NCBI GenBank assembly: GCA_015069135.1
Contig: SVJE01000009.1
Coordinates: forward strand, 1 to 64,000
Source of the DNA: Oscillospiraceae bacterium
GTDB lineage: Bacteria > Bacillota > Clostridia > UBA1212 > SIG427
DNA: 64,000 nt
Direction: 5' to 3'
The number at the start of each line of letters is the position of its first letter. Position 1 is the first letter of the stretch. Below, piece by piece: positions 16,118 through 59,143 of this stretch. Under the pieces are notes generated by a model. That model had not been told where the DNA came from, made no database searches, and was given only the letters and a program-made list of their open reading frames with translations. The translations under genes were made by a program, and so were the position numbers.

Positions 16118-16283
16118 AAAAGGAACCCAATCTTAATAAAAACAGCGTATTGGATTCCTTTTATTATGTTATTCCTATAAAAAAACAAGAAAAAAGGAAC
16201 CCACTGCTGTAATATTTCCGGACATTGGGTTCCCTTTTTACAGAAAAATACACCCAAAAGACTGCTTTTTCTTACAATGGGTG
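16118..16283. repeat. Alternating inverted-word hairpin array (GGAACCCA type, copy 1)
   Basis: Six copies of one word alternate in orientation: AAAAGGAACCCAAT (16118-16131), ATTGGATTCCTTTT (16149-16162), AAAAAGGAACCCA (16191-16203), TTGGGTTCCCTTTTT (16225-16239), CACCCA (16251-16256), TGGGTG (16278-16283). Each pair can form a hairpin with an unrelated 17-21 base loop. The first two hairpins have an A run before and a T run after, so they could end transcription in both directions. The trkH terminator (ACCCGGA/TCCGGGT) continues the pattern. This array fills most of the 307-base gap between trkH and cotJA; I see no gene in that gap. Confidence 0.8.
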
Positions 16284-16294
16284 CCTGCCTTTAC

Positions 16295-16329
16295 AAAAAA
16301 ATACCCGGACCTTACTATGAAATCCGGGT
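16295..16329 (-). terminator. Terminator after trkH
   Basis: Arms TCCGGGT/ACCCGGA (16323-16329 and 16303-16309) have a 13-base loop. On the minus strand an ATTTTTTT tract follows. It lies 23 bases past the trkH stop. Confidence 0.75.
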
Positions 16330-42408: not shown

Positions 42409-42410
42409 TA

Positions 42411-42583
42411 CACCCAAAACGATAAAAAAACATCTTGGGTTCCCTTTTGGTCAAAAAATCGTTGATTTTGCTAAATTACAGGAACCCATACAAAACAATC
42501 CAGGGTGTTTGGATGCCTTTTTTTCTTTGTTTTTTTTAAAAAAGGAACCCAAAAGCCACTTTCTGTAACTATTGGATTCCCTT
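42411..42583. repeat. Alternating inverted-word hairpin array (GGAACCCA type, copy 2)
   Basis: Six words alternate in orientation: CACCCA (42411-42416), TTGGGTTCCCTTTT (42435-42448), AGGAACCCA (42480-42488), TTGGATGCC (42509-42517), AAAAGGAACCCAA (42540-42552), TTGGATTCCCTT (42572-42583). The words match the array at 16.1 kb, but the loops do not. The last pair, just after the DAG kinase stop, has a T run on the minus strand and probably acts as its terminator. The 42340-42592 gap holds this array and the promoter above; no gene is seen. Confidence 0.8.
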
Positions 42584-42592
42584 CAAATCAAA

Positions 42593-43982: not shown

Positions 43983-44074
43983 CTTAGACTACATCTCCTG
44001 TTTAAGTTTACAAGAGAATTGTAGGAAACAATTTACAACCAAACTTCAACTATACTTCAATTTTTGTTGATTTT

Positions 44075-45118
44075 TTAGAAAATTATGGTAAAAAGGCAAC
44101 CGCCATCAAGAACATTCTCTGCCTTTATTTCACCACCTGTTATATAAAGAATTCTTTTTACCAAAGATAGCCCAAGACCATTACCTTCCTGTTTATGAGA
44201 ACTATCTCCTTGGTAAAATTTATCAAAAATATGCTTTTTAGCTTCATCAGACAGTCCGGAACCATTGTCTCTCACTGAAAAGAATATTTTACCATCTTGC
44301 TTATACAGTCTTATCTGTACTTTACCATTTTTCGGACTGAACTTAATAGCATTACCTATTACATTATCCCATACATGATGCATTAGATTTTCACTGCCAT
44401 AAAAATCCACATTTTCCAAATCTATATCAAATTCTATGTTTTTTGCACTCCACTCAGGTTCCAAAGCCAGAATAGACTGTCTGATTTGCTCATCCAGCCT
44501 GAACATGATTTTATTTGTATTTATTGTTTGGTTTTCTATTTTTGAAAGCAACAAAATATTTCCTACCAGAGAAGACAGCCTTTTGGTATTAAAAAGAATC
44601 TTTTCCACATACTCCTTTTGTTCCGGATCTCCACTGTAATCCTGCAACAGTGTGGCGTAGCCCTCTATGGCATTTATAGGGGTTTTAAATTCATGAGATA
44701 CATTAGAAACAAAATCAGACTGGAGTATTTCCGTTGCTTCCAGTTCCTGTACCATCATATTAAAACCGGCAAACATTTCCTGCATTTCCAATGAAGATGA
44801 CTTCGTCTGAAGTCTTACGGTAAAATCTCCTTCTGAAACCTTCCCCATTCCTTCTCTCAACTTCTTAACAGGATCAAAAAACACTTTCGCAAACAGCCTT
44901 GTAGCAATGGCCACAAATATCAGACTGAAAAAACCAATCTGAATAAATTCCGGCACTTTATGTAAAACAGGAAACAACCAACCAAGAAGTTGTACAATGC
45001 CAAAAGCTATTCCGAAGCTTAGCAAAAGTGCTACTGTAACTAAAACTGTAAGTCTGGCCTTAAGGGAAAACTTTATTTTTCTGTTTTTAAACTCATAGAA
45101 ATGGTCTTTCGCTTTCAT
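44075..45118 (-). CDS. Sensor histidine kinase
   Basis: The 347-residue kinase has two membrane helices (about 22-48 and 58-80) with almost no extracytoplasmic loop, a HAMP domain (about 80-132), HisKA with His142 in VSHEFKTP, and HATPase with GNAIKFSPKNG, RDNGSGL and GNGLGLSLVKRI. The short loop suggests it senses something in the membrane, such as envelope stress or an antibiotic, as intramembrane-sensing kinases do. It overlaps the regulator gene by 4 bases. Confidence 0.9.
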   Translation of the reverse strand: MKAKDHFYEFKNRKIKFSLKARLTVLVTVALLLSFGIAFGIVQLLGWLFPVLHKVPEFIQIGFFSLIFVAIATRLFAKVFFDPVKKLREGMGKVSEGDFTVRLQTKSSSLEMQEMFAGFNMMVQELEATEILQSDFVSNVSHEFKTPINAIEGYATLLQDYSGDPEQKEYVEKILFNTKRLSSLVGNILLLSKIENQTINTNKIMFRLDEQIRQSILALEPEWSAKNIEFDIDLENVDFYGSENLMHHVWDNVIGNAIKFSPKNGKVQIRLYKQDGKIFFSVRDNGSGLSDEAKKHIFDKFYQGDSSHKQEGNGLGLSLVKRILYITGGEIKAENVLDGGCLFTIIF

Positions 45119-45786
45119 ATTTTAACCACCTTATAGCCAACACCTCTCATGGTTACTATTTTGAAATCTTCATTTGTACGAAAGCGATCTCTCAGTCTTC
45201 CTATATGTACATCAACAGTGTGAGTATCACTGTCAGATTCATATCCCCACACATCATCCATTAGTTGTTGTCTGGTAAATATTTTACCGGGATAAGAAGC
45301 CATTTTGTACAAAAGCATAAATTCCTTCTGAGGCAGCACCACTGTCTCAGAAGGAGTTTTTACACTGAATGTGTCACACTCTAATATGGTATTTCCCATT
45401 GTAATTCTACGATCATTAATCATTTGTGCCCTTCTTAATAAAGCACCTACTCTAAGTACCATTTCGTTTACATTAACAGGTTTCACCATGTAATCATCGG
45501 TTCCGGATAAAAAGCCTAATCGCATATCATCAAAAGCATCTTTAGCAGTAATCATCATAACCGGAGTAGTATTTCCGGCATCTCTAAGACTTCTCACCAA
45601 TTCATAACCATCCGTTACCGGCATCATAATATCAGATATGATAAGGTCAAAATATTCTTTTTCTATAGCGTCGAGAGCTTCTTTACCATCTGCAACTTCA
45701 GTTACTATGTAACCTTGTTTAATAAGCACATGAGCAAACAGTCTTCTTAATTCGCGATCATCTTCTGCAATCAGTATCTTCAGCAT
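45115..45786 (-). CDS. OmpR family response regulator
   Basis: The start at 45786 follows AAGGTGACAACT. The 223-residue protein has a receiver domain with the phospho-acceptor Asp52 in LIISDIMMP, acidic pair EDD near 8-10 and Lys in YMVKPVN, then a winged-helix trans-reg-C domain (about 128-222). It pairs with the kinase just downstream. A palindrome at its own transcription start suggests autoregulation. Confidence 0.92.
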   Translation of the reverse strand: MLKILIAEDDRELRRLFAHVLIKQGYIVTEVADGKEALDAIEKEYFDLIISDIMMPVTDGYELVRSLRDAGNTTPVMMITAKDAFDDMRLGFLSGTDDYMVKPVNVNEMVLRVGALLRRAQMINDRRITMGNTILECDTFSVKTPSETVVLPQKEFMLLYKMASYPGKIFTRQQLMDDVWGYESDSDTHTVDVHIGRLRDRFRTNEDFKIVTMRGVGYKVVKI

Positions 45787-45796
45787 AGTTGTCACC

Positions 45797-45845
45797 TTTC
45801 ATGTTATCTACATGAAATGATACTTGTGACAAAAAAACATGTCAA
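45797..45845 (-). promoter_or_regulatory. Promoter and palindrome of the two-component operon
   Basis: On the minus strand a perfect TTGACA (45840-45845) and TATCAT (45817-45822) are 17 bases apart. A perfect 8-base inverted repeat TTTCATGT-N5-ACATGAAA (45797-45817) covers the expected start site. Confidence 0.7.
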
Positions 45846-47419
45846 GTCAAACCTTTATCTGCAAGAATACTTTCAGCTTTCATTCTGGGGAAAGTTATCT
45901 TCCAGATGGATTCGGTTGTTTCCTCTGTTTTATAGGTCGAAGCAATTAAATAAAGCTTGTTGCAAACTCGATTATAAACCCAGTCATCCTTATCTGCTTT
46001 TTTGTCTGTAAAATCAGTACCCTGTTTCTCATCATAATATTCTGCCAGTTTAATCATAGCCGGCACTGCAGCATCTCCCAGTTCATATAAAGATTCCACA
46101 TCTATAATATCTGTCTTTCCTGAAACATATCTTTCCACATTGTAATTTGCGATTATATTTTCCACATTGGAAAAGGCCAATCCTCCGAAAGCAACTATCA
46201 GAACAAGAACGGAAACAGCAATAACCTTAACTTTATTTACAAACTGCTTTATTACCAGCAAAACAAAAATCAAAGTCAGTACCAACATAAACCAGGTAGC
46301 ATAAATTCTCTTCTGAGTAAGTCCGTAAACATCAATATACAATACCATTTTAGAAATTGCAGTAGCAATTAAAATCAAAGTAAAAACGGAAAAAACAGTA
46401 ACCAGTACTTTCTGAATTATACTTGGCTTTGCAGTTTCGCGGCACATAAACATGGAGATTACAATCAGTATTATAAAATTAATTACAGAAACAGTGCAAA
46501 GTTGGAAAAATCCTTCTCTGGCATATTCTGCGTAAATTGTATCCACCGGTAAAATACCTTTGAATCCCGAAACATAGTATTGCCACTGAGAAATAAAGAA
46601 AATTATATAAACAATCAGAACAGGTAGTGTTGCAGCAATTATTGTACTTACAGGTGCTTTTTTTGCTTTCATTGAAGCATTGCGACAGCTTTCTGCTACC
46701 ATAATATCTTTTGTTTTATTTTCCACTGAAGAGAAAAATATTCCATACGCATACATTCCAACAGGAACACCAAATGTAATGCAAAAAATATCAGAGAAAA
46801 CATCCCAATCTGCAAATATCTTGTCAATTATATTACTGAAATTGCTGTCATAAGAAAGCAACACCACAATTACTACTGTAGGTATGATAGCAATAGCCAC
46901 ACCCAACAACACCTTAAGTACAACTTTGCCTCTACCTTTTTCACTGCTGGAAAAAGCCGCAGGGAATATATACCCTAAAGACATAAAAGGAACGATAAAC
47001 AGTATTTTAAAGAAGTCTATCAGTATAAGATCGCTTAACCCTTTTTCGGTCTGATTTCCAAAGGCTATATACATAAAATAGCCATAAGCTAACAGGCAAT
47101 ACATATATGAAAAAAACTGTATTGTAGCATTGGAAGTAACAACCATTGATGCAGACATGAGCAATGCTGACCCTGCTACCAAATAAGCATTTAAGCCTAA
47201 AGTAGCTTTTTTCACCTTAACAACCACAAAACTTGTAATAATTAAAGCTACTATAAACAAGAAAGCGCCTAAAGGATTTTCCGCTGCAGAAAAAACCTTA
47301 CAAAACCCATAACCTATTACAAAGCATAACCAAGCATAGGCTATTTCAACTTTTGAAAATTTGCGTACAGCTCCCAAGGACTGATGGTTCTCCTCCAGCC
47401 AAGTTACGTTATTGTCCAT
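45842..47419 (-). CDS. Multi-helix membrane protein (DUF4173/DUF4153-like)
   Basis: The start at 47419 (MDNNVTWLEE) follows AAGGAGTTGTTAAGA. The 525-residue protein has about 12 predicted helices in the first 430 residues and a soluble C-terminal part (about 435-525). It fits the DUF4173/DUF4153 family, whose role is unknown. It is the third gene after a DUF2975 protein and an XRE repressor, a recurrent Firmicute arrangement in which the regulator controls the membrane proteins. Confidence 0.75.
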   Translation of the reverse strand: MDNNVTWLEENHQSLGAVRKFSKVEIAYAWLCFVIGYGFCKVFSAAENPLGAFLFIVALIITSFVVVKVKKATLGLNAYLVAGSALLMSASMVVTSNATIQFFSYMYCLLAYGYFMYIAFGNQTEKGLSDLILIDFFKILFIVPFMSLGYIFPAAFSSSEKGRGKVVLKVLLGVAIAIIPTVVIVVLLSYDSNFSNIIDKIFADWDVFSDIFCITFGVPVGMYAYGIFFSSVENKTKDIMVAESCRNASMKAKKAPVSTIIAATLPVLIVYIIFFISQWQYYVSGFKGILPVDTIYAEYAREGFFQLCTVSVINFIILIVISMFMCRETAKPSIIQKVLVTVFSVFTLILIATAISKMVLYIDVYGLTQKRIYATWFMLVLTLIFVLLVIKQFVNKVKVIAVSVLVLIVAFGGLAFSNVENIIANYNVERYVSGKTDIIDVESLYELGDAAVPAMIKLAEYYDEKQGTDFTDKKADKDDWVYNRVCNKLYLIASTYKTEETTESIWKITFPRMKAESILADKGLT

Positions 47420-47435
47420 TCTTAACAACTCCTTT

Positions 47436-47639
47436 TTATTCTTTTATATATTCGATGATATCTTCAACTTTACAGTCAAGTGCTTCACATATGGCTTCTA
47501 AAGTTGAGAACCTTATAGCCTTAGCTTTGTTGTTTTTTAATATAGAAAGATTAGCAAGTGTAATACCTACTTTTTCCGACAATTCATTAAGAGACATTTT
47601 TCTTTTTGCCATCATTACATCAAGGTTAATCACTATCAT
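47436..47639 (-). CDS. Small XRE family (Cro/CI-type) helix-turn-helix protein
   Basis: The 67-residue protein is nearly all one HTH domain (KRKMSLNELSEKVGITLANLSILKNNKAKAIRFSTLEAIC in two parts). The YozG type is usually paired with a DUF2975 membrane protein, as here (11 bases upstream). It ends in KVEDIIEYIKE. It probably represses its own operon. Confidence 0.9.
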   Translation of the reverse strand: MIVINLDVMMAKRKMSLNELSEKVGITLANLSILKNNKAKAIRFSTLEAICEALDCKVEDIIEYIKE

Positions 47640-47650
47640 ACTCGCACCTC

Positions 47651-48109
47651 TCAGATGGTAAAATCATTTTCTGCTTTTATCCGTGTAGCTTCTTCAATTA
47701 CATTTTTCACTACTCTTAAACTTATTCCAAAGAATATACAGGCAAAAGATACAAAGAAGGAAATATAGAAATATATACCCAAAAGTGCGAACACGGGGCA
47801 AAGAATCATTGCACACCAGGAAATACATCTTATGTATGCAACACTCTTAACTGTGAAAACTTTGCCTTCCTTTACCAGTTTCAAAAGTCTGAACAAAAAT
47901 ACGTCCGCCAAGGCCATAATTAACAAAATCAAATAAGCAAGAACAATTATAAAAATTCTTGCACTCTGTGTTTCAACTTTATGAATCAAATCAATAAATA
48001 TATTTGCCTGTGTTGGCATTATAACTGCACCTGCTATAAGCACAATGAAAAAGAGCACTGACAAAGCAAGTGAAATCATAACTGATACTTTCGAAGGTAT
48101 TTTTAACAT
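47651..48109 (-). CDS. DUF2975 family membrane protein
   Basis: The start at 48109 (MLKIPSKVSVMISL) follows AAGGCGGTAATCTAT and lies after the promoter; an earlier reading to 48169 would cover the -35. The 152-residue protein has four predicted helices with the DUF2975 loop FRLLKLVKEGKVFTVKSVAYIRCISW. Function unknown; it is the first gene of the DUF2975-XRE-DUF4173 operon. Confidence 0.85.
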   Translation of the reverse strand: MLKIPSKVSVMISLALSVLFFIVLIAGAVIMPTQANIFIDLIHKVETQSARIFIIVLAYLILLIMALADVFLFRLLKLVKEGKVFTVKSVAYIRCISWCAMILCPVFALLGIYFYISFFVSFACIFFGISLRVVKNVIEEATRIKAENDFTI

Positions 48110-48140
48110 ATAGATTACCGCCTTTTGTATTTTCACGACT

Positions 48141-48169
48141 ATAATATACCATCTTTTTTTGTTTGTCAA
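48141..48169 (-). promoter_or_regulatory. Promoter of the DUF2975 operon
   Basis: On the minus strand a perfect TTGACA (48164-48169) and TATTAT (48141-48146) are 17 bases apart, about 32 bases before the start codon. Confidence 0.75.
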
Positions 48170-48197
48170 TACTTTTTTATTGTTTTTCGATAAATTT

Positions 48198-48935
48198 TTA
48201 TTTATTTACATATTCAACAAAGTCCTGACGACTTCCATTGAAGACATTCATGTCAATATATTTTTCCTCTCCGTTATAGCCACCCAAAGTTTCTCTGTTA
48301 GTATACTGCCAGAATGTCCACTTCTTTCCATCGGACAGTTTAGGTTTTGCCACCACATCTCTTATCCATATATCGTACTCTTTATAATCTTCCGAAAAAA
48401 ACTTCTCATAAAAATCTTCTGTAGTATAAATTATCGGCTTTTTATTGTAATGGTTCTCAAGAATATCTAACATAGATTTAAGCTCTTTTGAAAGATTCTC
48501 TCTGGTAGGAGTGTTTTTACTTTTGTAGTACTCCACATCTATCACCGGCGGCAACATGTCATCATAGCCTTCAACAGTATTTATAAAGTTCTCTGCCTGT
48601 GTCTCACCGGCACTGTCAAAACTGAAAAAGTGATATGCACCTGCATAAAGTTTTGTTTTTCTTGCTTCTTCATAGTTGTAGTCAAAACATATATCTTTGT
48701 GACTACTTCCTTCAGTAGCTTTTATAAATGCAAAATCAATGCCTTGGGAAGCCAAAACTTGCCAATCAATTTTACCCTGATAGCGGGAAACATCCACACC
48801 TCTTACCGGGTACTTATTCCTTGATGGATTATTAAGCTGAATTACGCCATTCCACAATAATACAGCCAATACGCCGCCACATACCGCTAAAGCAGTAAAA
48901 ACAATAAGCAATTTAAGCCACAGTTTCTTTTTCAC
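48198..48935 (-). CDS. GH25 family lysozyme (muramidase)
   Basis: The start is a GTG at 48935 behind GGAAGGAGAATTGAAT; a reading from 48968 would overlap the MATE gene. The 245-residue protein has an N-terminal membrane anchor or signal (about 4-27) and a GH25 domain with catalytic acidic residues in RGVDVSRYQGKIDW, KATEGSS and PPVIDVEYY. It hydrolyses the beta-1,4 bond between MurNAc and GlcNAc. It lies directly after the MATE gene, so it is probably co-transcribed. Role in wall turnover or spore function is not determined. Confidence 0.9.
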   Translation of the reverse strand: MKKKLWLKLLIVFTALAVCGGVLAVLLWNGVIQLNNPSRNKYPVRGVDVSRYQGKIDWQVLASQGIDFAFIKATEGSSHKDICFDYNYEEARKTKLYAGAYHFFSFDSAGETQAENFINTVEGYDDMLPPVIDVEYYKSKNTPTRENLSKELKSMLDILENHYNKKPIIYTTEDFYEKFFSEDYKEYDIWIRDVVAKPKLSDGKKWTFWQYTNRETLGGYNGEEKYIDMNVFNGSRQDFVEYVNK

Positions 48936-48937
48936 AT

Positions 48938-50329
48938 TCAATTCTCCTTCCGGTTTAAAGGATTCCATTTCCCTCTTACAAAAGTAATAAGATACATAAC
49001 AAACAGCAATAGATTATGTGCAATCATACAGGCCCAGGCAGAAATCAAATCCAGACCCAATAAGTTTATGCATATAAATGTGCCTATAATACGAATGCCC
49101 CACATACCTATAACATTATAAACAAAAGGCTGTCTAGTCTTTCCTACTCCCTGCATCATACCCTCAATTACAATAGGAAGTCCATAAAAAGGTTCTGATA
49201 CTGCCACCATTCTTAATACCGTTATACCCAAAGTCATAACTTCTTTGTTATCTGCAAAGAGACTTACAAGCCAAGGAGCCATAAAGAAAAGAGCAGCCCC
49301 TGATAATGTCATTAATATTATCTCTATAGGCAAAAACATATTTGCTATAGATTTCATTCGCTTGTTATCTTTTGCTCCGTATGCATTTCCGGTCAGTGTG
49401 GCTGCCGCAGCCTGCATTCCGTATCCCGGAATGTAAAATGCTGACTCTACTGTATTAGCCACTGTGTGGGCCGCTGTGGATACCTCTCCTAAAGAATTAA
49501 TCATAGCCGCGAAGGCAACATAGCCCAAAGTGGTGGCAAAACGCTGTAACATATTAGGAAGTGCTATTCTTAGACAGGGCTTTAATATGGTTTTATCAGG
49601 TTTTAAAGAGTATCCCTTAGGTGAAACCATTTTATGATTCCATAGAGCTACTGTAATCAATATACCACCAACAAAAAATGCTATGGCACTGGCTGTTGCC
49701 GCTCCAATTACACCAAAACCTGCTCCGGGTATTGTAACGAGAGCTGAAAAACATTTTACCGTTCGGGTTTCATATATAAGGAAGAAGTTCAATACCACGT
49801 TTATAACATTTACCAAAGCCCCAACTTTCATAGGTGTTTTAGTATCGCCTGCAGCTCTTAACACTGTGCCAAAAATAGCAGTAGCAGCCCTTGGCAGCAT
49901 TGGCATATATAATATAAAAAAGTATTGGGACGTTATAATTCTGATATTGGGGTCCACCTGCATAAGAGTTGGTATGTAGGGACTTACGCTCAATAGAATA
50001 ATAGTAAATAAAACCCCTGATATAAGAGTCACAAGTACTGATTGAGCTGTAGTTTTTTTAGCACTTTCCCTATCTCCTGCACCACATGCTTTGGCAATGT
50101 AAGAAAGAAAACCTATACCTAATGCCGTAGTTGTACTATTAACAAGCCAACCTAATGTGGTTGTAGCACCCACTGCCGCAGTGGCATAGGTACCTAAACT
50201 TCCCACCATTGCAGTATCTATATATTGAACCGCTGTTTGCATAACCTGCTCTAAAATAGTAGGCCAGGCCAGGGATAAAATTATACCAATAGTGGTCCAT
50301 TTGCTTTTTTCAGTAAAATTTTTATTCAT
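48938..50329 (-). CDS. MATE family multidrug efflux pump
   Basis: The 463-residue protein has 12 predicted helices and the MATE repeats, beginning SLAWPTILEQVMQTAVQYIDTAMVGSLG and with a matching second half near 245. It exports cationic drugs or metabolites in exchange for Na+ or H+. It has no Shine-Dalgarno, and a perfect TATAAT lies 7 bases before the ATG, so its mRNA probably begins at or next to the start codon. The hairpin-array words lie on its -35 region. Confidence 0.9.
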   Translation of the reverse strand: MNKNFTEKSKWTTIGIILSLAWPTILEQVMQTAVQYIDTAMVGSLGTYATAAVGATTTLGWLVNSTTTALGIGFLSYIAKACGAGDRESAKKTTAQSVLVTLISGVLFTIILLSVSPYIPTLMQVDPNIRIITSQYFFILYMPMLPRAATAIFGTVLRAAGDTKTPMKVGALVNVINVVLNFFLIYETRTVKCFSALVTIPGAGFGVIGAATASAIAFFVGGILITVALWNHKMVSPKGYSLKPDKTILKPCLRIALPNMLQRFATTLGYVAFAAMINSLGEVSTAAHTVANTVESAFYIPGYGMQAAAATLTGNAYGAKDNKRMKSIANMFLPIEIILMTLSGAALFFMAPWLVSLFADNKEVMTLGITVLRMVAVSEPFYGLPIVIEGMMQGVGKTRQPFVYNVIGMWGIRIIGTFICINLLGLDLISAWACMIAHNLLLFVMYLITFVRGKWNPLNRKEN

Positions 50330-50336
50330 GTGCTTA

Positions 50337-50364
50337 ATTATACAGGATTTTTTACACTGACAAA
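50337..50364 (-). promoter_or_regulatory. Probable leaderless promoter of the MATE gene
   Basis: On the minus strand TATAAT (50337-50342) is 7 bases from the ATG at 50329. The -35 region (about 50358-50364, TTTGTCA) is inside one copy of the array word. The -35 match is moderate with 15-16 base spacing. Confidence 0.55.
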
Positions 50365-50543
50365 AGTCTTTGTTTTTTAATTTTTGTCAGTAATTACACT
50401 GACTTGTATTCCAACATTTCATTGTTTAGCAGTGTAAAATCCGGAAAAACATAAATATTTAAGAGTTTTAAGGCTGTTTGGAATCAATTTACACTGACAA
50501 AGTTTTTACATCTAAGTTAAATATCAGTGTAATTACTGACAAA
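50351..50543. repeat. Alternating inverted-word array (ACTGACAAA type)
   Basis: The word TTACACTGACAAA and its complement alternate: 50351-50365 (forward), 50381-50391 (reverse), 50394-50403 (forward), 50430-50438 (reverse, partial), 50488-50502 (forward), 50524-50534 (reverse), 50535-50543 (forward). A perfect 20-base inverted repeat joins 50383-50402 and 50524-50543. Another pair, ATTCCAACA near 50409 and TGTTTGGAAT near 50475, pairs around the centre. The array fills the 249-base gap between the SLC13 gene and the MATE gene; no gene seen. Confidence 0.8.
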
Positions 50544-50578
50544 TCAATGCAAAAAACACAAAATAGCAGTAACAACTT

Positions 50579-51715
50579 TTACACACCGGAAACTATTTTT
50601 ACCAAAAACATCACACCCAGCAATAGAATCAAAAAACCATAATTAAATGCTGAAAACAAAAAAACATAGTGCCTTGATTTACCGGGATTATGACTCATAT
50701 ATTCACGATATGTAATCAAACTGGCAAGAGAAGCTATAAGACTTCCTACTCCACCAATGTTAACACCAATAAGCAAATCCCTATAATTTTCAGTAAACTG
50801 TGATAGCAACACTGCAGATGGTACGTTACTTATAACCTGGCAAGACAAAGTACTGAACAATAACGTACTCTTATTAAGTAAAAACGAAAACACATCCCTT
50901 ACCACATCAATACGGCTCATATTGCCGGCAAACACAAAGAAAAACACAAATGTAAGCAACAGCGGGTAATCCACCATTTTGAGGGCCCGCCAGTCCATGA
51001 ATAAAAGCACAACAGGAATCACAATCAAGCCTACTCCATATGGAATACCTCTGAATACAATTGCAATTGATAAAGCAAAAAGGATCAGATATATAATAGT
51101 TCTTGCCGGCGGAAGTTTTCTTTCTATAGGATTTATCTCTAATGCGTCCTTTTTCACAAAAACAAAGCAACACACTGTTATCAATAACACTGACACTGCA
51201 AAAGGAATTACCATTATTCCCATAAAGTCCATAGTGGGAATGTTAAATTTCGTATAAAGATAAAGATTCTGTGGATTTCCGAAAGGTGTCAACATCCCAC
51301 CTAAGTTAGCTGCAATATTTTGCATAATAAAGGTAAAAGCCATGTATTTTTCTTTTTGGGTAGAACTTAAGACAAAATATCCCAAAGGCAGAAAAGTCAA
51401 AAGCGCCATATCATTGGCAATAAGCATGGATCCTATAAAAGTTATGTACACCAAAGCAAGAATGCTCATACGTGCATTTTTAAAACATTTTACAATTTTC
51501 TGTGCAATCAGATAGAAGAATCTTATATTTTTAAGAGCACACACCACTGCCAATACGCAAAAAAGGCAGGTCAGCGTCTTAAAATCAAAATAGCCTAAAT
51601 ACTCCCTGTCAGGTGGTACGAAAAACATGGTTACGATCGCAGCCAGAAAGGCTATACACATTACCACGTTGGTTTTTATAAAGTTTTTGATAAAATTCAA
51701 AAATTTCATTTCCAC
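50579..51715 (-). CDS. SLC13/ArsB-like anion permease
   Basis: The 378-residue protein has about ten predicted helices and the citrate-transporter/ArsB fold, with IANDMALLTFLPLGYFVL, a conserved MLTPFGNPQNLYLY loop (about 153-166) and the second-half counterpart SNVPSAVLLSQF. It likely moves an organic acid, sulfate or another anion. The start is a GTG at 51715 (behind GGAGAATTT) or an ATG 6 bases later. It overlaps the end of the AAC(3)-like gene by up to 10 bases. Confidence 0.8.
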   Translation of the reverse strand: MEMKFLNFIKNFIKTNVVMCIAFLAAIVTMFFVPPDREYLGYFDFKTLTCLFCVLAVVCALKNIRFFYLIAQKIVKCFKNARMSILALVYITFIGSMLIANDMALLTFLPLGYFVLSSTQKEKYMAFTFIMQNIAANLGGMLTPFGNPQNLYLYTKFNIPTMDFMGIMVIPFAVSVLLITVCCFVFVKKDALEINPIERKLPPARTIIYLILFALSIAIVFRGIPYGVGLIVIPVVLLFMDWRALKMVDYPLLLTFVFFFVFAGNMSRIDVVRDVFSFLLNKSTLLFSTLSCQVISNVPSAVLLSQFTENYRDLLIGVNIGGVGSLIASLASLITYREYMSHNPGKSRHYVFLFSAFNYGFLILLLGVMFLVKIVSGV

Positions 51716-52488
51716 AAATTCTCCGGGATTTCTCTATGTTCTAAAAATATATCACTTTCTGCCCCAAGGAAGATTTTCAGAATTAAATCACGGCATTTAC
51801 CGGCATCCACTACTCTTACGATAGCATCTCCTATTTTACCGAAATACTGACAACCCATTTCAGTCAGAGGCCTATCAAAATTGGTAAAATACTGAGACAC
51901 ATCATCAGTCTCTGTACAATAGTGTGGTCTGTTTCTCACCCATTCTTCCTTACCGTGGGAATTTATAATTTTAACTTCATAAGCTTCTCCAATACGATTT
52001 GGAAGTTTCGCTCTTTCTTCCACAGAATGTATAAAAGTATTTTTGTTATTGCCAACACCAATAAGTAAAATCTTAGCACCAATATCTCCCAGCTTATCCC
52101 AGAAATATCCTACTGCTCCCGGGGTATGAGCATATTCCTCATTTTTAGTAAGCTCCTCAGCCATTTTACCATGCACCCATACAGAGTGCGTAGGATGAAG
52201 AGATCTTATGCCATCTTTACGGAAAGCTGCAGTACGTGGCACTACACCAATATTAGGAACAGTCTTTCTTACATCAAAAACATTGTTATCTTTATTAATA
52301 ACACCCCATGTATGGGTAGGTACTATAAAAGTACCCTCTGATAAATATTCGCAAAAAACATCAATAAAACCATCAGGACCCTCTTCTACGTCTCCCACTG
52401 CTTTGAAAGATGTGTGAATCAGTACTATGTCGTTTGGTAAAATTCCCAGTTCTTTAAGTTGTTTTTTAATTTCTGTCTTAGTAATCAT
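51706..52488 (-). CDS. Aminoglycoside N(3)-acetyltransferase family protein
   Basis: The start at 52488 (MITKTEIKKQ) is inferred; no Shine-Dalgarno precedes it, and a -10 CATAAT lies only 10 bases upstream, so the mRNA looks leaderless. The 260-residue protein has the AAC(3)/YokD fold motifs IVLIHTSFKAVG, GTFIVPTHTWG, RSLHPTHSVWVHGK and the late RNRPHYCTE. Family members acetylate aminoglycosides or unknown amines with acetyl-CoA. Many chromosomal homologues have no shown resistance role, so function should not be assumed. Confidence 0.85.
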   Translation of the reverse strand: MITKTEIKKQLKELGILPNDIVLIHTSFKAVGDVEEGPDGFIDVFCEYLSEGTFIVPTHTWGVINKDNNVFDVRKTVPNIGVVPRTAAFRKDGIRSLHPTHSVWVHGKMAEELTKNEEYAHTPGAVGYFWDKLGDIGAKILLIGVGNNKNTFIHSVEERAKLPNRIGEAYEVKIINSHGKEEWVRNRPHYCTETDDVSQYFTNFDRPLTEMGCQYFGKIGDAIVRVVDAGKCRDLILKIFLGAESDIFLEHREIPENLWK

Positions 52489-52498
52489 AACAGCAGTA

Positions 52499-52527
52499 AT
52501 TATGCCACAAAGAAGACATGGGTGCAA
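52499..52527 (-). promoter_or_regulatory. Leaderless-type promoter of the AAC(3)-like gene
   Basis: On the minus strand TTGCAC (52522-52527) and CATAAT (52499-52504) are 17 bases apart. The ATG follows after only 10 bases, leaving 2-4 bases of leader. Confidence 0.6.
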
Positions 52528-52541
52528 TAACCGCGGTGGAA

Positions 52542-52776
52542 TCGCCGACAAAATTAAAAAATTCGTAATTTGTCGGTGAAAGTATAAAAAACTCGCCGAT
52601 AATTACACTTGTACAGCATATTCGTCGGCGACTTTTTAGATAAAATTGGCTTTTTTAGCCCGTTTGTAACCCATACAAGCCAAAAGTCGCCGACAAAGTT
52701 CTCAATCATAATCGTCTGTCGGCGAAAAAATGTACAAGTCGTCGACAAGTCTGCAAAACTCTCTTTTTGTCGGCGA
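52542..52776. repeat. Alternating inverted-word array (CGCCGACAAA type)
   Basis: Eight copies of TCGCCGACAAA or its complement alternate strictly: 52542-52555 (F), 52567-52579 (R), 52593-52599 (F), 52624-52636 (R), 52682-52698 (F), 52717-52725 (R), 52738-52749 (F, degenerate), 52764-52776 (R). The central pair extends to a long stem, with TTGGCTT near 52647 and AAGCCAA near 52677 inside it. It occupies most of the 355-base gap between the divergent AAC(3)-like and GH36 promoters; no gene seen. Confidence 0.85.
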
Positions 52777-52784
52777 TTCTCGCA

Positions 52785-52813
52785 TTGACCCTACTTATAT
52801 GCCGTGATAAAAT
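52785..52813 (+). promoter_or_regulatory. Promoter of the GH36 gene
   Basis: TTGACC (52785-52790) and TAAAAT (52808-52813) are 17 bases apart. The start codon is at 52844. The last array word ends 9 bases upstream of the -35. Confidence 0.65.
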
Positions 52814-52843
52814 ATCCCCAGCATACAGATGAGAGGTTACATT

Positions 52844-54760
52844 ATGAATTACATACTTTCCGTGGAGCTTACAGATAAAAGTCCTGTGAAATTACATCTC
52901 ACCACAGAAGACAACTATCCTATAAAAATTTCTGTGGAAGAAATTGATTTTACCATTAAAAAATCAACCAACTACACATTACCTGAATACACAATTTCTT
53001 TTGTGCCACAAAAAAAAATCTCCATGTACGCTGTAAGGGTATTACTTCCCTATAATGAAAACAAGACAGGTGACACCTCTCCCATATATTTTTATGACAA
53101 CAACATCTGCACCAATGCATTTGCTGACATAAAGGAAATAGCAGCAGAAACACCCTACACCTACCGTTCCAGAGAAATTGTACTTGCTCAAAATAATAGT
53201 GGCAGACTTAATATTGCCTTTACAACATTCAACCGTTTCTACACGGAATTTGGCACCAACAAAAAAGATATAGCCGCTTCAATATATTTAGAAAACAAGC
53301 CTGTAAAGAAAGGTGAGTTATATACCCTTGAAACAATAGCCATGGATGACTCCACCCCTGGCTTGGAGTTTTTCGAAGAATACACTGAAATTCTCAGCAA
53401 AAAACACACTGTGGTTTTACCTGAATCAATTCCTGTCGGTTGGTCTTCCTGGTCATGTCTTTACGGTAGTGTTACACAGAACGAAGTACTAAAACAAGCC
53501 GGAGAGCTTGCAACCCATTGGAAAGAAAAAGGCGCTGACCTTATACAAATCGATGACGGATGGCAGGAAGGTGGTTCTTTTGCATCAATCTGGACAAATA
53601 ACAAAAACACTTTCCCGGACGACATTCCCCAGCTTAAAGAAGAACTTAACAAACTTGGACTTCGTCTTGGACTGTGGCTCTCTCCCGGATTGATTATAGA
53701 CAAATCAGAAGCCTTCGAAAACTTCCGCCCCTACATTAACACAGTGGACGGTAAAATGGTTAAACATTTCGGTGGAGATGACACTTTAGCAGCTGATATA
53801 AACGGTTCAGTTTACGGTTTACGCCTTGATGATAAGTATGTTCTTGATTATATAAAAGAAGTATTCCATAAATGTAAAGATGAATATGGTGCCTGCTATT
53901 TTAAGCTGGACTTTTTGATTAACCTTTTAATTCGTCTGGGAAATGGTGCATCAAGAGTTGAATATACCACCGGATATGCTGTAGAAGTATATAGAAATTT
54001 CATACATGAAATAAGAAAAACTGTAGGAGAAGATTCTTTTCTTTTAGCCTGTGGTTCACCTGTGGGCGAATCTATAGGAATATATGATTCCATACGTATT
54101 TCCAATGACATAACCTGGGAAGGAGCCGGAAATCCCGGTAGCATAAGCCCTTGGCTTATTATGTGGAAGGATGCTCAGAGTGCATTTTTAAGAAGCCCTT
54201 TCCACAAAAAGGTATTCATAAACGACCCTGATGCTTTGTTGGTAAGGGATTTTGACTCAGGTCATAACGACGGGCTTAATTTAACTTATGAGGAAGCAAA
54301 AATGTGGGCGACGGTAGTTGCTATGACAGGAGGACAGATTTTAATTAACGAAGAAATACACAAGCTTTCAGAAGAAAGAAAGGCTTTGATTGATAATATT
54401 TTACCGCCTCTAGGTCTGGCAGCCCGTCCTCGTAATTTCTTTGAATTCCCTAAATGTACAGAAACATTCATTAACTTTGATGAAAACTCACAACTTTGCG
54501 CTTTGTACAACTGGGACGAAGAAGAAATAACCAAAGAATTTAAGAATCCTTTTGAAAAAAAAGCCATAATGATAGATTGCTGGAGCCACGAAATAATTGG
54601 GGAAATTGAAACCACCTACACCTTTACCTTTCCGCCACACACCTGTAAAGCTATGTTGGTAAAACGCATTCCTTCTCCGGGTGAGTTTCTCTATAACGAC
54701 GGAAACTTTTATTTGGGACTGGGAGAAAGAAATGGAAAAGACTATTATTACAAAGCATGA
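52844..54760 (+). CDS. Alpha-galactosidase-like glycoside hydrolase family 36 protein
   Basis: The start at 52844 follows GAGAGGTTACATT. The 638-residue protein has an N-terminal beta domain (about 1-190) and a TIM barrel. The barrel shows GWSSWSCLYGSV, DLIQIDDGWQ, GLWLSPG, the nucleophile Asp356 in YFKLDF and the acid/base Asp422 in RISNDITW. GH36 enzymes remove alpha-galactosyl units such as those of raffinose and melibiose. It has no signal peptide, so it is cytoplasmic. It is a single-gene unit; the MFS-containing operon at 57-59 kb may supply its substrate. Confidence 0.87.
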   Translation: MNYILSVELTDKSPVKLHLTTEDNYPIKISVEEIDFTIKKSTNYTLPEYTISFVPQKKISMYAVRVLLPYNENKTGDTSPIYFYDNNICTNAFADIKEIAAETPYTYRSREIVLAQNNSGRLNIAFTTFNRFYTEFGTNKKDIAASIYLENKPVKKGELYTLETIAMDDSTPGLEFFEEYTEILSKKHTVVLPESIPVGWSSWSCLYGSVTQNEVLKQAGELATHWKEKGADLIQIDDGWQEGGSFASIWTNNKNTFPDDIPQLKEELNKLGLRLGLWLSPGLIIDKSEAFENFRPYINTVDGKMVKHFGGDDTLAADINGSVYGLRLDDKYVLDYIKEVFHKCKDEYGACYFKLDFLINLLIRLGNGASRVEYTTGYAVEVYRNFIHEIRKTVGEDSFLLACGSPVGESIGIYDSIRISNDITWEGAGNPGSISPWLIMWKDAQSAFLRSPFHKKVFINDPDALLVRDFDSGHNDGLNLTYEEAKMWATVVAMTGGQILINEEIHKLSEERKALIDNILPPLGLAARPRNFFEFPKCTETFINFDENSQLCALYNWDEEEITKEFKNPFEKKAIMIDCWSHEIIGEIETTYTFTFPPHTCKAMLVKRIPSPGEFLYNDGNFYLGLGERNGKDYYYKA

Positions 54761-54763
54761 GAA

Positions 54764-54793
54764 AAGCCCGGAGGCACATACGCTACCGGGCTT
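54764..54793. terminator. Bidirectional terminator between GH36 and hpt
   Basis: Perfect arms AAGCCCGG and CCGGGCTT surround a 14-base loop between convergent genes. The T tract on each side is short. Confidence 0.7.
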
Positions 54794-54804
54794 CTGAATT
54801 TCTG

Positions 54805-55356
54805 TTATTCACCATACTCTGCTATGTAAGGAAGATTTCTATACTTTTCTCCACAATCAAGACCATATCCGATTACAAAATGATCAGGAATCGTAAACAA
54901 TGAAATATCCGCTTTGAAATCAACCAATCGTCTGGATGGTTTATCCAACAAAGTTACCACACGGAGAGATATAGGATTTCTTGTCTTCAGCATATCAACC
55001 ACATCGTTAAGAGTTCTTCCTGTATCAATAATATCCTCAACAATAATTACATGATATTTGCTGATATCCTGATCCAGGTCCAGAGTTATCTTAACAACAC
55101 CTGTTGAAACTGTACCGCTAAAATAACTTTTAGCGCACATAAAACCTATTTCACAGGGAACTGTAATAGCCCGGCACAAATCCGCCATAAAAACAAAAGC
55201 ACCCTTAAGAATACTTACCAACAAAATGGGGCGACCATCATATGAATCACTTATTTCTTTGCCTGCTTTCTTAATAGCATCCTGAATTTCTTTTTCTGTA
55301 ATAAGTACTCTTTTTATCTTATTATCATATTCTTCAATACATTTAATAGGGTCCAT
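54805..55356 (-). CDS. hpt: Hypoxanthine phosphoribosyltransferase
   Basis: The 183-residue protein has the PRTase motif VIIVEDIIDTGRTL (about 98-111), the flexible-loop region CEIGFMCAKSYFSGT, and the C-terminal FVIGYGLDCGEKYRNLPYIAEY typical of HPRT. It salvages hypoxanthine or guanine with PRPP. It lies 37 bases after the DUF4091 gene, at the end of an operon of otherwise carbohydrate and lipid genes. Confidence 0.94.
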   Translation of the reverse strand: MDPIKCIEEYDNKIKRVLITEKEIQDAIKKAGKEISDSYDGRPILLVSILKGAFVFMADLCRAITVPCEIGFMCAKSYFSGTVSTGVVKITLDLDQDISKYHVIIVEDIIDTGRTLNDVVDMLKTRNPISLRVVTLLDKPSRRLVDFKADISLFTIPDHFVIGYGLDCGEKYRNLPYIAEYGE

Positions 55357-55393
55357 TATTTACAACGCCTCCTGCATTTATTCACCTTTTTTA

Positions 55394-56962
55394 TTATAAT
55401 AAATTTTCAATTAACAGTCTATATATTTCCTCAAATACATCTGTATCCGTATCGTAATCAGTAAATGATCTTACACATTTCTTAACTAACTCCATTGCTG
55501 TTTCAGGAGATTTTTCAGCTAACATCATTAAGAGCTCATAATCTTCTATACCGGAACGCATTGCCTCCAGCCGAACACTTCTAAGTACTATTTTACCCTT
55601 AGGATAAACGATGTGTGTGTCCCCTGCCGGAAGGATCTGCCCCATATGACCATCTACAAGGTCTCCTGCCAGCACAAAGGGGTTATCTCCGTTTGTATGA
55701 TAATAGCTGAAGCCCCAATGTAAATACCCGGTAAAACCATACAGATAATTAGCCCAGTGAAGATATCTTGTTCTTATTAAATCAAGATCAAGAAGACGAT
55801 TTAAGTATGTACCTCCCGGGAAACAACATGTATAGTACCAACATTCCATATCCTTTTTAAGTCTGTCATAGCCTTCCCTGTCATTTACATATCCTATAGA
55901 CTTCGGAACACAAATATCGATAGCTCCATCAATATTGGTGGTTTCCACTGCATCAACCAAAGGGATACCGGGGAGAATTTCTTTAAATATTTTTGCAAGT
56001 TTACAATAATCTTCTGCGCAGCCATCATGTGGTTCATCTGCCACATGTTGAGTAGCATTATCCAGCCAATTATTTTCCTTGAGAAAAACATACCACTGAG
56101 AGTAGTAACTTTTTATAAGCTTAAGTCCTTCTTCCGAAAGTGCCGGATATTTTTCTTTTCCCCAGCGAACCAAAAATTCCGAAGAACCCCAGTTGGCACG
56201 GCACACCATGGTTTCACCCTCAATGTTTGTAAAACCTTCAGACAAAAAAATCTCAATAAATCTTTTCGTTCTGGTAAAATCAAATACATACTCACCATCA
56301 GACGTTACCGTTCTGGTGGCCAACTTACAATGGGTCATAAAATCAGTTTGTCTGCAAACTCTCATGGTTTTTGCATATTCTTTAATCATTTCCCAGTGTT
56401 CTTCCGACCAGCGTTCTACACCATGGAAATCAGCCATATCATTTAAGTCGTACCAATTTGTTACTCTCAGCTTTCCATTTTCAGGCACAGACACAGCTGA
56501 AACATTTATTGTTACAGGAATTGTCAGAATTTCTTCGGGATTCGTAATAATGAGACATCCGCTATATTTTCCGGCGCCTATACCTTTGGTACACCATTTG
56601 ATATACAAAGCAGCTACTCTCTTTTCACCCGGTAAAATATTACCAGCTACAGGTTCCATAGGGTCAAAAACTTCAAAAGGAGCTTGTTTTGTAGCATGCG
56701 GCGCAGGTGTGCCCGGAGCCACAATAGTCTCCCACCCATCAGCACAATTTTTCTCCACTCTGACAGGTATCAGTTGATTTATTTCCGGCTCCAAGAAGGA
56801 ATCTCCTGACCATTTTACCGTCAGACTTTCAACACATTCACATAATACCTGAACACAGCCATAACTGTTTCCTACACAGTTAAGACTTATTTCTTTTTTT
56901 CCTTCTTTAGGATCAATATCCGGATATATCCATTGATTCTGACTAAAAACACCGTAATTCAT
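55394..56962 (-). CDS. DUF4091 domain glycoside-hydrolase-like protein
   Basis: The start at 56962 (MNYGVFSQNQWIYPD) follows GAAAGGTGAACAT. The 522-residue protein has an N-terminal beta-sandwich (about 1-155), a TIM-barrel-like centre with NIEGETMVCRANWG, VADEPHD (a possible acidic catalytic pair) and a C-terminal DUF4091 region (YLHWANYLYGFTGYLHWGFSYY and RLEAMRSGIEDYELLMML). DUF4091 proteins include glycosidases, but the specificity here is not known. It has no signal peptide. It lies in the MFS-GDPD-DUF4091-hpt operon. Confidence 0.8.
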   Translation of the reverse strand: MNYGVFSQNQWIYPDIDPKEGKKEISLNCVGNSYGCVQVLCECVESLTVKWSGDSFLEPEINQLIPVRVEKNCADGWETIVAPGTPAPHATKQAPFEVFDPMEPVAGNILPGEKRVAALYIKWCTKGIGAGKYSGCLIITNPEEILTIPVTINVSAVSVPENGKLRVTNWYDLNDMADFHGVERWSEEHWEMIKEYAKTMRVCRQTDFMTHCKLATRTVTSDGEYVFDFTRTKRFIEIFLSEGFTNIEGETMVCRANWGSSEFLVRWGKEKYPALSEEGLKLIKSYYSQWYVFLKENNWLDNATQHVADEPHDGCAEDYCKLAKIFKEILPGIPLVDAVETTNIDGAIDICVPKSIGYVNDREGYDRLKKDMECWYYTCCFPGGTYLNRLLDLDLIRTRYLHWANYLYGFTGYLHWGFSYYHTNGDNPFVLAGDLVDGHMGQILPAGDTHIVYPKGKIVLRSVRLEAMRSGIEDYELLMMLAEKSPETAMELVKKCVRSFTDYDTDTDVFEEIYRLLIENLL

Positions 56963-56966
56963 ATGT

Positions 56967-57770
56967 TCACCTTTCAAATATAGGGTACTCTTTAAGAGAC
57001 TCCGCTACTTTGTATTCATCGTCTCCTTTTACTGTCCATACAAATTTTACCGCCCTATGAAGACCGATGGCTAACTTAACAGGTAAGCGGTTTCTATCCA
57101 CTTTGTTGTAAGCAATAAAATCAGGTCTTGATATGAAATTAAATACCATAGCTGTCAGTAAAATGTTAATAACAGATTTTTTATTTTTTTCTCTGCAGAC
57201 ATTTGTATAGAGCTGTCCGTAAAATGCATCCGGCAGATATTTTTTCATAGTTTTGATAAGTAACGGATTAAAAGATTCAATGCAATAGGGGCCCTTGTAC
57301 GCTTTAAGTAAATTTGCTACCTTTACACAAAGCGATGTATTAAAATCTTCTCCTTTAAGTTCAACCAGCAAAGGAACCCTTCCGTCAACAAAACCCAGTA
57401 CTTCCTTAAATGTAGGAATCTTTTCATCAGTACCTGCTAATGAAAGCTGTTGTAACTCTTCTCCCGTTAATTCACAGACCTTCTTATCACTCTCTGTCAT
57501 ACGACCCAAAAGATAATCATGGTAAACCATAACCTGACCGTCTTTTGAAAGCTGTACATCCAGTTCAATACCATATTCCTCTGCCACAGCCTTTTCAAAA
57601 GCTGCCAGGGAGTTTTCAGGTATATTTCCACCATGTAACCCTCTATGAGCATAAGCTGTAAAAAGTCTTTCATCAGAAGGTATTCTTCCTCTTGGGGCCA
57701 CCAGAACAAAAACATACAGTCCCAACAGTACAAGTAGTATCAATAATATAATTAAAATAACACTCAGCAT
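56967..57770 (-). CDS. Membrane-anchored glycerophosphodiester phosphodiesterase
   Basis: The 267-residue protein starts at 57770 with a membrane helix (about 3-24) and a GDPD domain. Catalytic residues are in AHRGLHGG (H42, R43), PENS, IELDVQLSKDG (E69, D71) and VYHD (H84). It hydrolyses glycerophosphodiesters to glycerol-3-phosphate and an alcohol. The ribosome binding site is weak (GGATG), and it starts 2 bases after the MFS gene, so it may be coupled to it. Confidence 0.88.
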   Translation of the reverse strand: MLSVILIILLILLVLLGLYVFVLVAPRGRIPSDERLFTAYAHRGLHGGNIPENSLAAFEKAVAEEYGIELDVQLSKDGQVMVYHDYLLGRMTESDKKVCELTGEELQQLSLAGTDEKIPTFKEVLGFVDGRVPLLVELKGEDFNTSLCVKVANLLKAYKGPYCIESFNPLLIKTMKKYLPDAFYGQLYTNVCREKNKKSVINILLTAMVFNFISRPDFIAYNKVDRNRLPVKLAIGLHRAVKFVWTVKGDDEYKVAESLKEYPIFER

Positions 57771-57772
57771 AA

Positions 57773-59143
57773 TCAATCAACATCCATGTGCTCTAAAGCA
57801 CTTTTCTTTTCAACAGGAATAGAATCTCCGTGTTTAACAAAAAACATTGTAATAAATGAAAATACCACAAACAGGGCTCCAAATGTAAAGAATACATAAC
57901 GCATTCCCAATAAATCATACAAAATACCGGAAAGTATAGGTGCTACTATCTGTGCTGACATAGAAGCTGTGTAATAGTAGCCGGTATATTTTCCTACATC
58001 ACCATGTTTTGCAAGTTCAACAACCATAGGGAAAGAGTTTACATTTATTGTTGCCCAACCGATACCTGCCAATACAAACACAGGTATCATAATAACTTCA
58101 GGTGTTTTGGGAGTAATAAATATTCCGGCAGCAAATGCTGATGCCAAAATAAGCACACCTGCTAATATTGTTTTCTTTCTTCCTACTTTTGATGCAATAA
58201 TTCCCACAGGAATATATGAGACTATAGCTGCTGCCTGAGCAATTATTAAAGTAAAATTAAAATCAAACCCTAAAATATTTGATGCATATACAGAATATTT
58301 ACTGGTTATGGAGTTGTATCCAATAAACCAGAGCATTACTGAAGCAAGAATAAGTAAAAGTGATTTAAGTTCTGCCTTTGAAAGTTTGTTATTTGTTGTA
58401 GCTTCGTTGAAATTTTCCTCAACTAAACCCAATTCAACAGAATCCCTTTCCATCTCTTCAGCCCATTTTTTCTCTTTTACACAAAGGAGAAAAATAACGA
58501 AGCCTGCAAGCATAACTAAGCAAACAGCAATTACATAACCGGTGTATTCCATGTAAGGATTTTTTGATGTGGCAAATACCATACCTAAAACTAAAACTAT
58601 AATACCACCGGCTGTACCTGTAAGATTTATAATTGCATTTGCTTTGGAACGAAGTGGTTTCGGTGTTACGTCAGGCATTAATGCCACCGCCGGTGAACGG
58701 AAGGTTGCCATAGCAACCAACACTACTAAAAGGGTAGCTATGAAACCTATTAATGGTAAAGGATTGCTCAATGTTAGATCTAATGTTAATTTTCTTACTG
58801 ATTCTGAACCTGGTATACCTGCTGCAATTACTTTGGAAATCTGATAGTTGTCAACTAATGTGAGACCTATAAAAGAGATTACTGCAATAATTGTTCCAAA
58901 AAAAATAAATGGAGTACGCTTTCCGAATCTTGTATTCACTTTATCTGAAATCGCACCAAATATAGGAAGCATAAATACTGCCAATATGTTATCAAAAGAC
59001 ATTACCGCTCCTGAAATTGTCTGCGGAAGTCCGAAATGATTTGTAAGTATAAGTGGAACTATTGCATCATAAGCCTGCCAAAATGCACTTATAAGAAAGA
59101 ATGCCATTCCTACAAGCATAGTGCGTTTGTAATTAAGTTTCAT
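57773..59143 (-). CDS. MFS transporter, GPH/SLC45-like sugar importer
   Basis: The start at 59143 (MKLNYKRTML) follows AAAGGGATATACT; longer readings have no ribosome binding site. The 456-residue protein has 12 predicted helices, with FGAISDKVNTRFGKRTPFI in the loop 2-3 position and a second half with the same motif (ASKVGRKKT). The two conserved Asp/Arg-rich loops and the length fit glycoside-type transporters of the SLC45/GPH group. It heads the operon with the GDPD and DUF4091 genes and probably imports an oligosaccharide or a glycosyl-glycerol. Confidence 0.85.
   Translation of the reverse strand: MKLNYKRTMLVGMAFFLISAFWQAYDAIVPLILTNHFGLPQTISGAVMSFDNILAVFMLPIFGAISDKVNTRFGKRTPFIFFGTIIAVISFIGLTLVDNYQISKVIAAGIPGSESVRKLTLDLTLSNPLPLIGFIATLLVVLVAMATFRSPAVALMPDVTPKPLRSKANAIINLTGTAGGIIVLVLGMVFATSKNPYMEYTGYVIAVCLVMLAGFVIFLLCVKEKKWAEEMERDSVELGLVEENFNEATTNNKLSKAELKSLLLILASVMLWFIGYNSITSKYSVYASNILGFDFNFTLIIAQAAAIVSYIPVGIIASKVGRKKTILAGVLILASAFAAGIFITPKTPEVIMIPVFVLAGIGWATINVNSFPMVVELAKHGDVGKYTGYYYTASMSAQIVAPILSGILYDLLGMRYVFFTFGALFVVFSFITMFFVKHGDSIPVEKKSALEHMDVD

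Follow-up and report, generated by a model that had tools for sequence, protein, structure and literature searches.

The intergenic arrays A and B of the window, i.e., the stretch of 64,000 nucleotides from an Oscillospiraceae genome (contig SVJE01000009.1 of assembly GCA_015069135.1) that was analysed here, are probably helically phased half-sites, each array serving one sequence-specific DNA-binding protein with a predicted nuclease domain. With fairly good confidence, they can be placed in an undescribed class of systems in which nuclease genes are paired with phased arrays of short words, with seven or more pairs in a single genome, where each protein would read only its own word and the two change together between species. 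Sequence comparisons establish one word per gene, whole-turn spacing and arms that are conserved in place while the loops drift, as well as the linkage of each gene to an own-word array and the co-divergence of word and protein. No description of such systems was found in a search of the open-access literature, subscription papers being outside that search.

Array A (50352-50572) has a MATE gene on one side and a CitMHS-like gene on the other; array B (52540-52778) is flanked by genes for an aminoglycoside acetyltransferase-like and a melibiase-like protein. The two arrays have different words and a four-unit layout in common, with about eight half-sites of alternating orientation in each. In each unit, two copies of the word, one forward and one reverse, enclose a loop, and units 1-2 and 3-4 bracket an unconserved centre. 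From 50352 to 50572 the half-sites of units h1-h4 of array A are oriented + - + - + - + -, with a centre of about 50 bp, and array B holds eight alternating copies of TCGCCGAC, starting at 52542, 52572, 52593, 52624, 52687, 52718, 52739 and 52769. Two arrays of a third word, C, were identified in the window using a de novo detector. The features of the window are:

16119-16300, no strand assigned: array of word C, GGAACCCAAT / ATTGGGTTCC, of the same class (de novo detector)
42410-42590, no strand assigned: second array of word C (de novo detector)
50352-50393, plus strand: array A unit h1, TTACACTGACAAA ... TTTGTCAGTAA (sequence; match to model R1)
50394-50437, plus strand: array A unit h2, TTACACTGACTT ... 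TTTAGCAGTGTAA (sequence; match to model R1)
50438-50488, no strand assigned: centre of array A, about 50 bp, unconserved among seven copies (alignment A3)
50489-50532, plus strand: array A unit h3, TTACACTGACAAA ... TATCAGTGTAA (sequence; match to model R1)
50533-50572, plus strand: array A unit h4, TTACTGACAAA ... TAGCAGTAA (sequence; match to model R1)
52540-52581, plus strand: array B unit h1, TCGCCGACAAA ... TTTGTCGGTGA (sequence; model match)
52591-52633, plus strand: array B unit h2, CTCGCCGATAA ... TTCGTCGGCGACTTTTT (sequence; model match)
52634-52684, no strand assigned: centre of array B with an unrelated inverted repeat, TTGGCTTTTTTAGCC, not common to copies elsewhere
52685-52727, plus strand: array B unit h3, GTCGCCGACAAA ... 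CTGTCGGCGA (sequence; model match)
52737-52778, plus strand: array B unit h4, TCGTCGACAAG ... TTTGTCGGCGA (sequence; model match)

Both arrays are thus found where the original prediction had placed them, with one layout and different words. The alternation of array B was reached in 0/300 dinucleotide shuffles of its gap and that of array A, when its gap was taken alone, in 8/300; the reality of array A is settled by its copies in the genome, where the exact 13-mer TTACACTGACAAA occurs 10 times vs 0 for the reversed control. The corresponding counts for TCGCCGACAAA are 16 and 3. Some details of the prediction need revision. The statement that both words end in GACAAA holds in part, as the arms of array A end in GACAAA, GCTAAA or GATAAA, and the opening hairpin proposed for both arrays is in array B not a separate element but unit 1 of 4. 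The reverse copies, said to have all changed to match the forward ones, reflect two separate word families rather than one array edited into another.

Arrays A and B are members of two word families that are dispersed over a genome of 1.9 Mb (92.7% complete, about half of which was read as stretches). Covariance models built from single units and run over this genome identified 7 arrays of family A (TTACACTGACAAA), and 8 arrays with at least two units together with three single units of family B (TCGCCGACAAA). Among the seven A copies the arm-core columns are 90% identical and other columns 39%, where 29% is expected at random. At least six further words, C-H, are found in the same genome, where the counts outside A and B rest on a sample of 0.86 Mb; among those from the de novo detector, which uses no prior word and, run strictly on 400 kb of Markov sequence, reports no array, are CCTACCT/CCAACCT, AACACTGTA and CCCCTGATAATA. 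With at least eight words in total, the presence of multiple words in one genome is notable, as remarked earlier. The grouping into word families superseded an initial view in which every array was spelled differently. At one locus (C7:125738-126405), word B forms a tandem series of 13 units, spaced by about 52 bp, in which alternate units have nearly identical loops. The arrays have unrelated housekeeping genes as neighbours; unit h4 of array A ends 7 bp from the stop codon of the CitMHS-like gene, and the second word C array 3 bp from that of the next gene.

The genes linked to the arrays belong to one family. The A-side and B-side genes (C4:195044-195787 and C6:49672-50418, respectively, both outside the window) were found to be homologous to each other, and the genome harbors seven such paralogs of about 250-270 residues each. 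All seven adjoin an array, each of a different word (A, B, D, E, F, G and H), and none of them is assigned to word C. No Pfam, NCBIfam or PHROGs family covers the seven paralogs, the best partial matches being endonucleases. The N-terminal approximately 130 residues are unlike any library family, while the C-terminal half displays a near-invariant pattern E, YE, PDF, E that resembles PD-(D/E)XK nucleases, with E143, E160, D173 and E188 near-invariant in the family alignment. The position of the catalytic lysine (E-x-K) reads E-[HFY]-x-G, and a nearby W-x-x-K is common, not invariant. From these conserved E, (P)D and E residues and from a modelled fold, the C-terminus is predicted to be a PD-(D/E)XK nuclease-like domain of the Vsr or homing-endonuclease type. 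The fold is that of a relative from a viral contig (L328), in which the nuclease core was modelled with a pLDDT of 80-92 and the N-terminal region poorly; it matches Vsr, homing-endonuclease (I-Bth0305I, TMt 0.67) and restriction folds and DUF2726, where solved structures are matched weakly (E = 1.5e-3 at best), and a sequence search of solved structures returned nothing relevant to the family. The same C-terminal domain ends helicase-like proteins and candidate defence proteins.

Upstream of six of the seven paralogs (L187, L188, L189, L190, L191 and C4:194987), CGACGGACA precedes a TATAGT-like -10 element by about 17 bp, and it occurs once elsewhere in the 864 kb sampled, inside a coding region; judged by this common upstream element, the paralogs look co-regulated. 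In genus g10 (G015 and G025) many paralogs have a different upstream element, GGGAAATAA ... TTATTTCCC (L228, L230, L231, L212 and L233). The word-G paralog adjoins a tyrosine recombinase gene (L189, 604-1458, contig C6).

The pairing of gene and array extends beyond this genome. Homologs were found in 17/31 genomes of the order and in 37/391 genomes sampled from the class. A strict detector placed an array beside 23/51 homologs in the order; the flanks of the others, read manually, hold own-word units at most of these loci and none at some. An unbiased flank alternation score of at least 6 was obtained for 15/62 full-length homologs as against 3/1000 random places (Mann-Whitney p = 1.3e-19), and for 0/5 remote homologs; owing to common ancestry, the homolog loci are in part not independent. 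Gene-array pairs were also found in further families of the order and class, in each case with new words, and the arrays reach 16-17 alternating copies at the class-wide extremes (CGAATAC, GTGATAC and CACGGAC), so that the absence of other arrays from related genomes, which would have spoken against the original prediction, is not what is seen. In the nearest relative, G001, the de novo detector identified arrays of other words, and three of the four words found before its genes were known equal gene-side words, i.e., AATCCAC (L122 / L223), GCCATTA (L120 / L224) and TACTACTA (L115, L121 / L239). Because a scan for word A of contigs from other species returned three scattered records of one stretch each, and model R1 had no match in 37 relatives, the words appear to be private to a species or genus. 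CGACAAA hairpins in relatives were few and not above the reversed control. Searches of plasmid and phage collections using tblastn returned no full-length relative; among viral contigs none was found with the first alignment and one array-bearing relative, L328, with a wider alignment. This relative (720-960, IMG/VR contig 3300010162_000048) has its own array, with the word TTGTATCGTCA.

The spacing of the half-sites relates the arrays to double-stranded DNA, the helical repeat of which is 10.5 bp. Same-orientation spacings cluster at 42, 52.5, 63, 73.5, 84, 94.5 and 105 bp, and over 39 word families they fall on multiples of 10.5 bp (R = 0.77-0.78), which is the best period in scans of 7-16 and 6-20 bp. 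When each family was shifted at random, 0/20000 family-level permutations matched the observed phasing, where the spacing values are partly related by descent and the permutation corrects for this only in part. The spacing fits a protein that would lie along one face of double-stranded DNA.

Selection on the arms is indicated by the sister species G015 and G025 of one genus, in which six pairs of arrays, five dispersed and one gene-side, occupy orthologous sites and agree in word. Here, the arms have changed at 11/177 positions (6%) vs 218/912 other positions (24%; Fisher p = 8.7e-9). The best reading of these substitution patterns is that the arms are under selection in place, and the earlier suggestion of selection on the words is in this respect supported. 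Units of GGRYACA in G015 (39 matches vs 0 for the reversed control) are almost all exactly 35 bp long, with loops that are fixed in length and free in sequence. An orthologous protein that is 86% identical between the two species has the same word in both, while at four gene-side sites with orthologous flanking genes the proteins are 56-65% identical and the word differs, e.g., CGGGTACA vs TGGACACA. Because CGGGTACA and TGGACACA are both dispersed as arrays in both species, the difference is a cassette or specificity change at the site rather than a genome-wide rewrite. A concerted switch of word across all arrays of a genome was considered and discarded, as GGGTACA and GGACACA are present in both sister species. 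For the GGACACA arrays of G015, no partner gene was found in its 91% complete genome.

In the proposed mechanism, a protein in which a unique N-terminal part precedes a C-terminal PD-(D/E)XK domain would read its own word as double-stranded DNA, recognition presumably residing in the poorly modelled N-terminal region. Binding to alternating half-sites on one face of the DNA would yield a nucleoprotein complex in intergenic DNA, often after stop codons, and the nuclease domain may nick or cut at the arrays. Such a complex, maintained by selection, is the likeliest role that can be proposed on the data at hand. The arms may persist because the cell benefits from the complex, e.g., as a transcription or supercoiling boundary; alternatively, the benefit could be that bound arrays restrain the nuclease. 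Individual genomes carry as many as seven paralogs or more; almost all intact ones adjoin an array of their word, further copies of which occupy other intergenic sites, and in the course of evolution the protein and its word change jointly. If this mechanism is correct, one small genome contains several separate DNA-addressing systems, each with a protein and its own word; dozens of matched protein-word pairs offer a natural series for working out a recognition code; and intergenic repeats are kept by selection in place, not by transposition, together with a nuclease family that is unnamed in protein libraries. A specificity change would be directly testable where the word has switched at one site between the sister species.

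The original prediction had offered two other explanations, selection for pairing and gene conversion of a binding word. Covariation between the arms of a unit is not above that of shuffled partners in either family A or B, contrary to the expectation that forward and reverse words change together, and the two arms mix freely (e.g., GAC with AGC). Because the arms of a unit pair no better than shuffled partners, it is the sequence of the arm that is kept and not the pairing; the spacing locked to the DNA helix also argues against selection for pairing. Gene conversion is disfavored by loops that are unrelated between copies and by orthologous arms that stay while loops drift. A function in RNA, where transcribed stem-loops would terminate, process or protect mRNA 3' ends, has some appeal: for about 13/28 arrays, the distance from a stop codon to the beginning of the array is no more than 25 bp, and runs of A and T flank the B and C units, as in bidirectional terminators. 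This explanation is nevertheless very unlikely given the pairing result, the 10.5 bp spacing, the combination of fixed loop length and free loop sequence, a compensated change in one of about four orthologous units with arm changes, and the absence of Rfam matches above the gathering threshold in 44000-58000.

It is also conceivable, but unlikely, that the linked nuclease spreads the arrays as selfish miniature elements, in a homing or REPIN-like manner, with arms that are conserved because this enzyme requires them. Each gene has an adjoining array and more copies elsewhere, near-identical tandem expansions exist (C7:125738-126405, L198 and L199) and the nuclease fold is like that of homing endonucleases; yet same-word loops and centres are unrelated except in identical tandem units (identity 0.39 vs 0.29 at random), six arrays occupy orthologous sites in two species, and no target-site duplication was seen by eye. 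Furthermore, dead copies should lose arms and loops equally, whereas the arms change four times more slowly. Slightly harder to sustain is a role in defence or addiction, in which the nuclease would attack foreign DNA or the chromosome, the arrays of the cell itself would sequester or restrain it, and loss of arms would be harmful. The C-terminus matches the candidate defence proteins PDC-S68/S69 (PADLOC) in 24-28 of 28 members, and the words of paralogs diversify within and between genomes like restriction specificities. However, the match is confined to the C-terminal approximately 110 residues, i.e., the nuclease domain alone is in common and no full-length match to PDC-S68/S69 was obtained; no defence neighbours were seen beside most paralogs; and with many redundant arrays per word, selection at each would be weak.

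Preferring phased half-sites for a dedicated DNA-binding protein, one may ask how the arrays relate to known systems. The closest parallel is provided by REP/BIME/REPIN repeats with RAYT (TnpA_REP), or "REPtrons", alternating palindromic repeats with a dedicated nuclease-type protein beside its own repeats (PMC2817692, PMC3116915, PMC8266576); as described for S. maltophilia, a single genome may harbor several such pairs of repeat and protein (PMC3733652). The arrays share with these systems the alternating palindromic intergenic repeats, the nuclease-type protein beside its own repeats, multiple pairs per genome, and co-evolution of repeat and protein. Unlike REP-RAYT, where the enzyme is of the Y1 HUH type, the arrays are found with a PD-(D/E)XK-like protein, their loops are unrelated between copies, they are static between species, and their whole-turn spacing points to double-stranded sites and, together with the lack of covariation above shuffles, argues against recognition as folded single-stranded hairpins. 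The GTAG/CGTC tag, which is not a rule here, is absent from the palindrome foot in A, B, C, E, F, G and H, and GTAG occurs within the arm of D only. A reading of the arrays as ordinary REP/BIME repeats mobilized by a RAYT (Y1 transposase) is scarcely credible: the genome encodes three PF01797 proteins, one of RAYT size, but the arrays are linked to a different protein family and most words lack the tag. A link to RAYT was rejected, as no arrays adjoin the RAYT-like gene. That gene (L028, 2535-3341; C1:120567) encodes a RAYT-sized Y1 protein and lies with a UvrD-like helicase gene, apparently inserted near a murA-like gene.

The array-linked family has its C-terminal nuclease fold in common with Vsr-like and I-Bth0305I homing endonucleases and with DUF559/DUF2726, but differs from homing endonucleases in the N-terminal approximately 130 residues without library match and in having many native intergenic array sites instead of one homing site. 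It shares the C-terminal domain with PDC-S68/PDC-S69 and with helicases ending in PD-(D/E)XK, and differs from these in lacking a helicase part, in its linked arrays and in being a short two-part protein. Like MITEs, the arrays are short, dispersed, intergenic and built of inverted repeats; in contrast to MITEs, the whole sequence is not common to the copies (arms 0.90 vs other columns 0.39, random 0.29), target-site duplications were not seen by eye, and the arrays occupy orthologous sites with arms that appear to be under selection. A separate inverted pair, AAGACGGGGGTCTGCCCCC / GGGGGCAGACCCCCGTCTT, surrounds a small gap elsewhere in the genome (L158, 8032-8150, contig C7).
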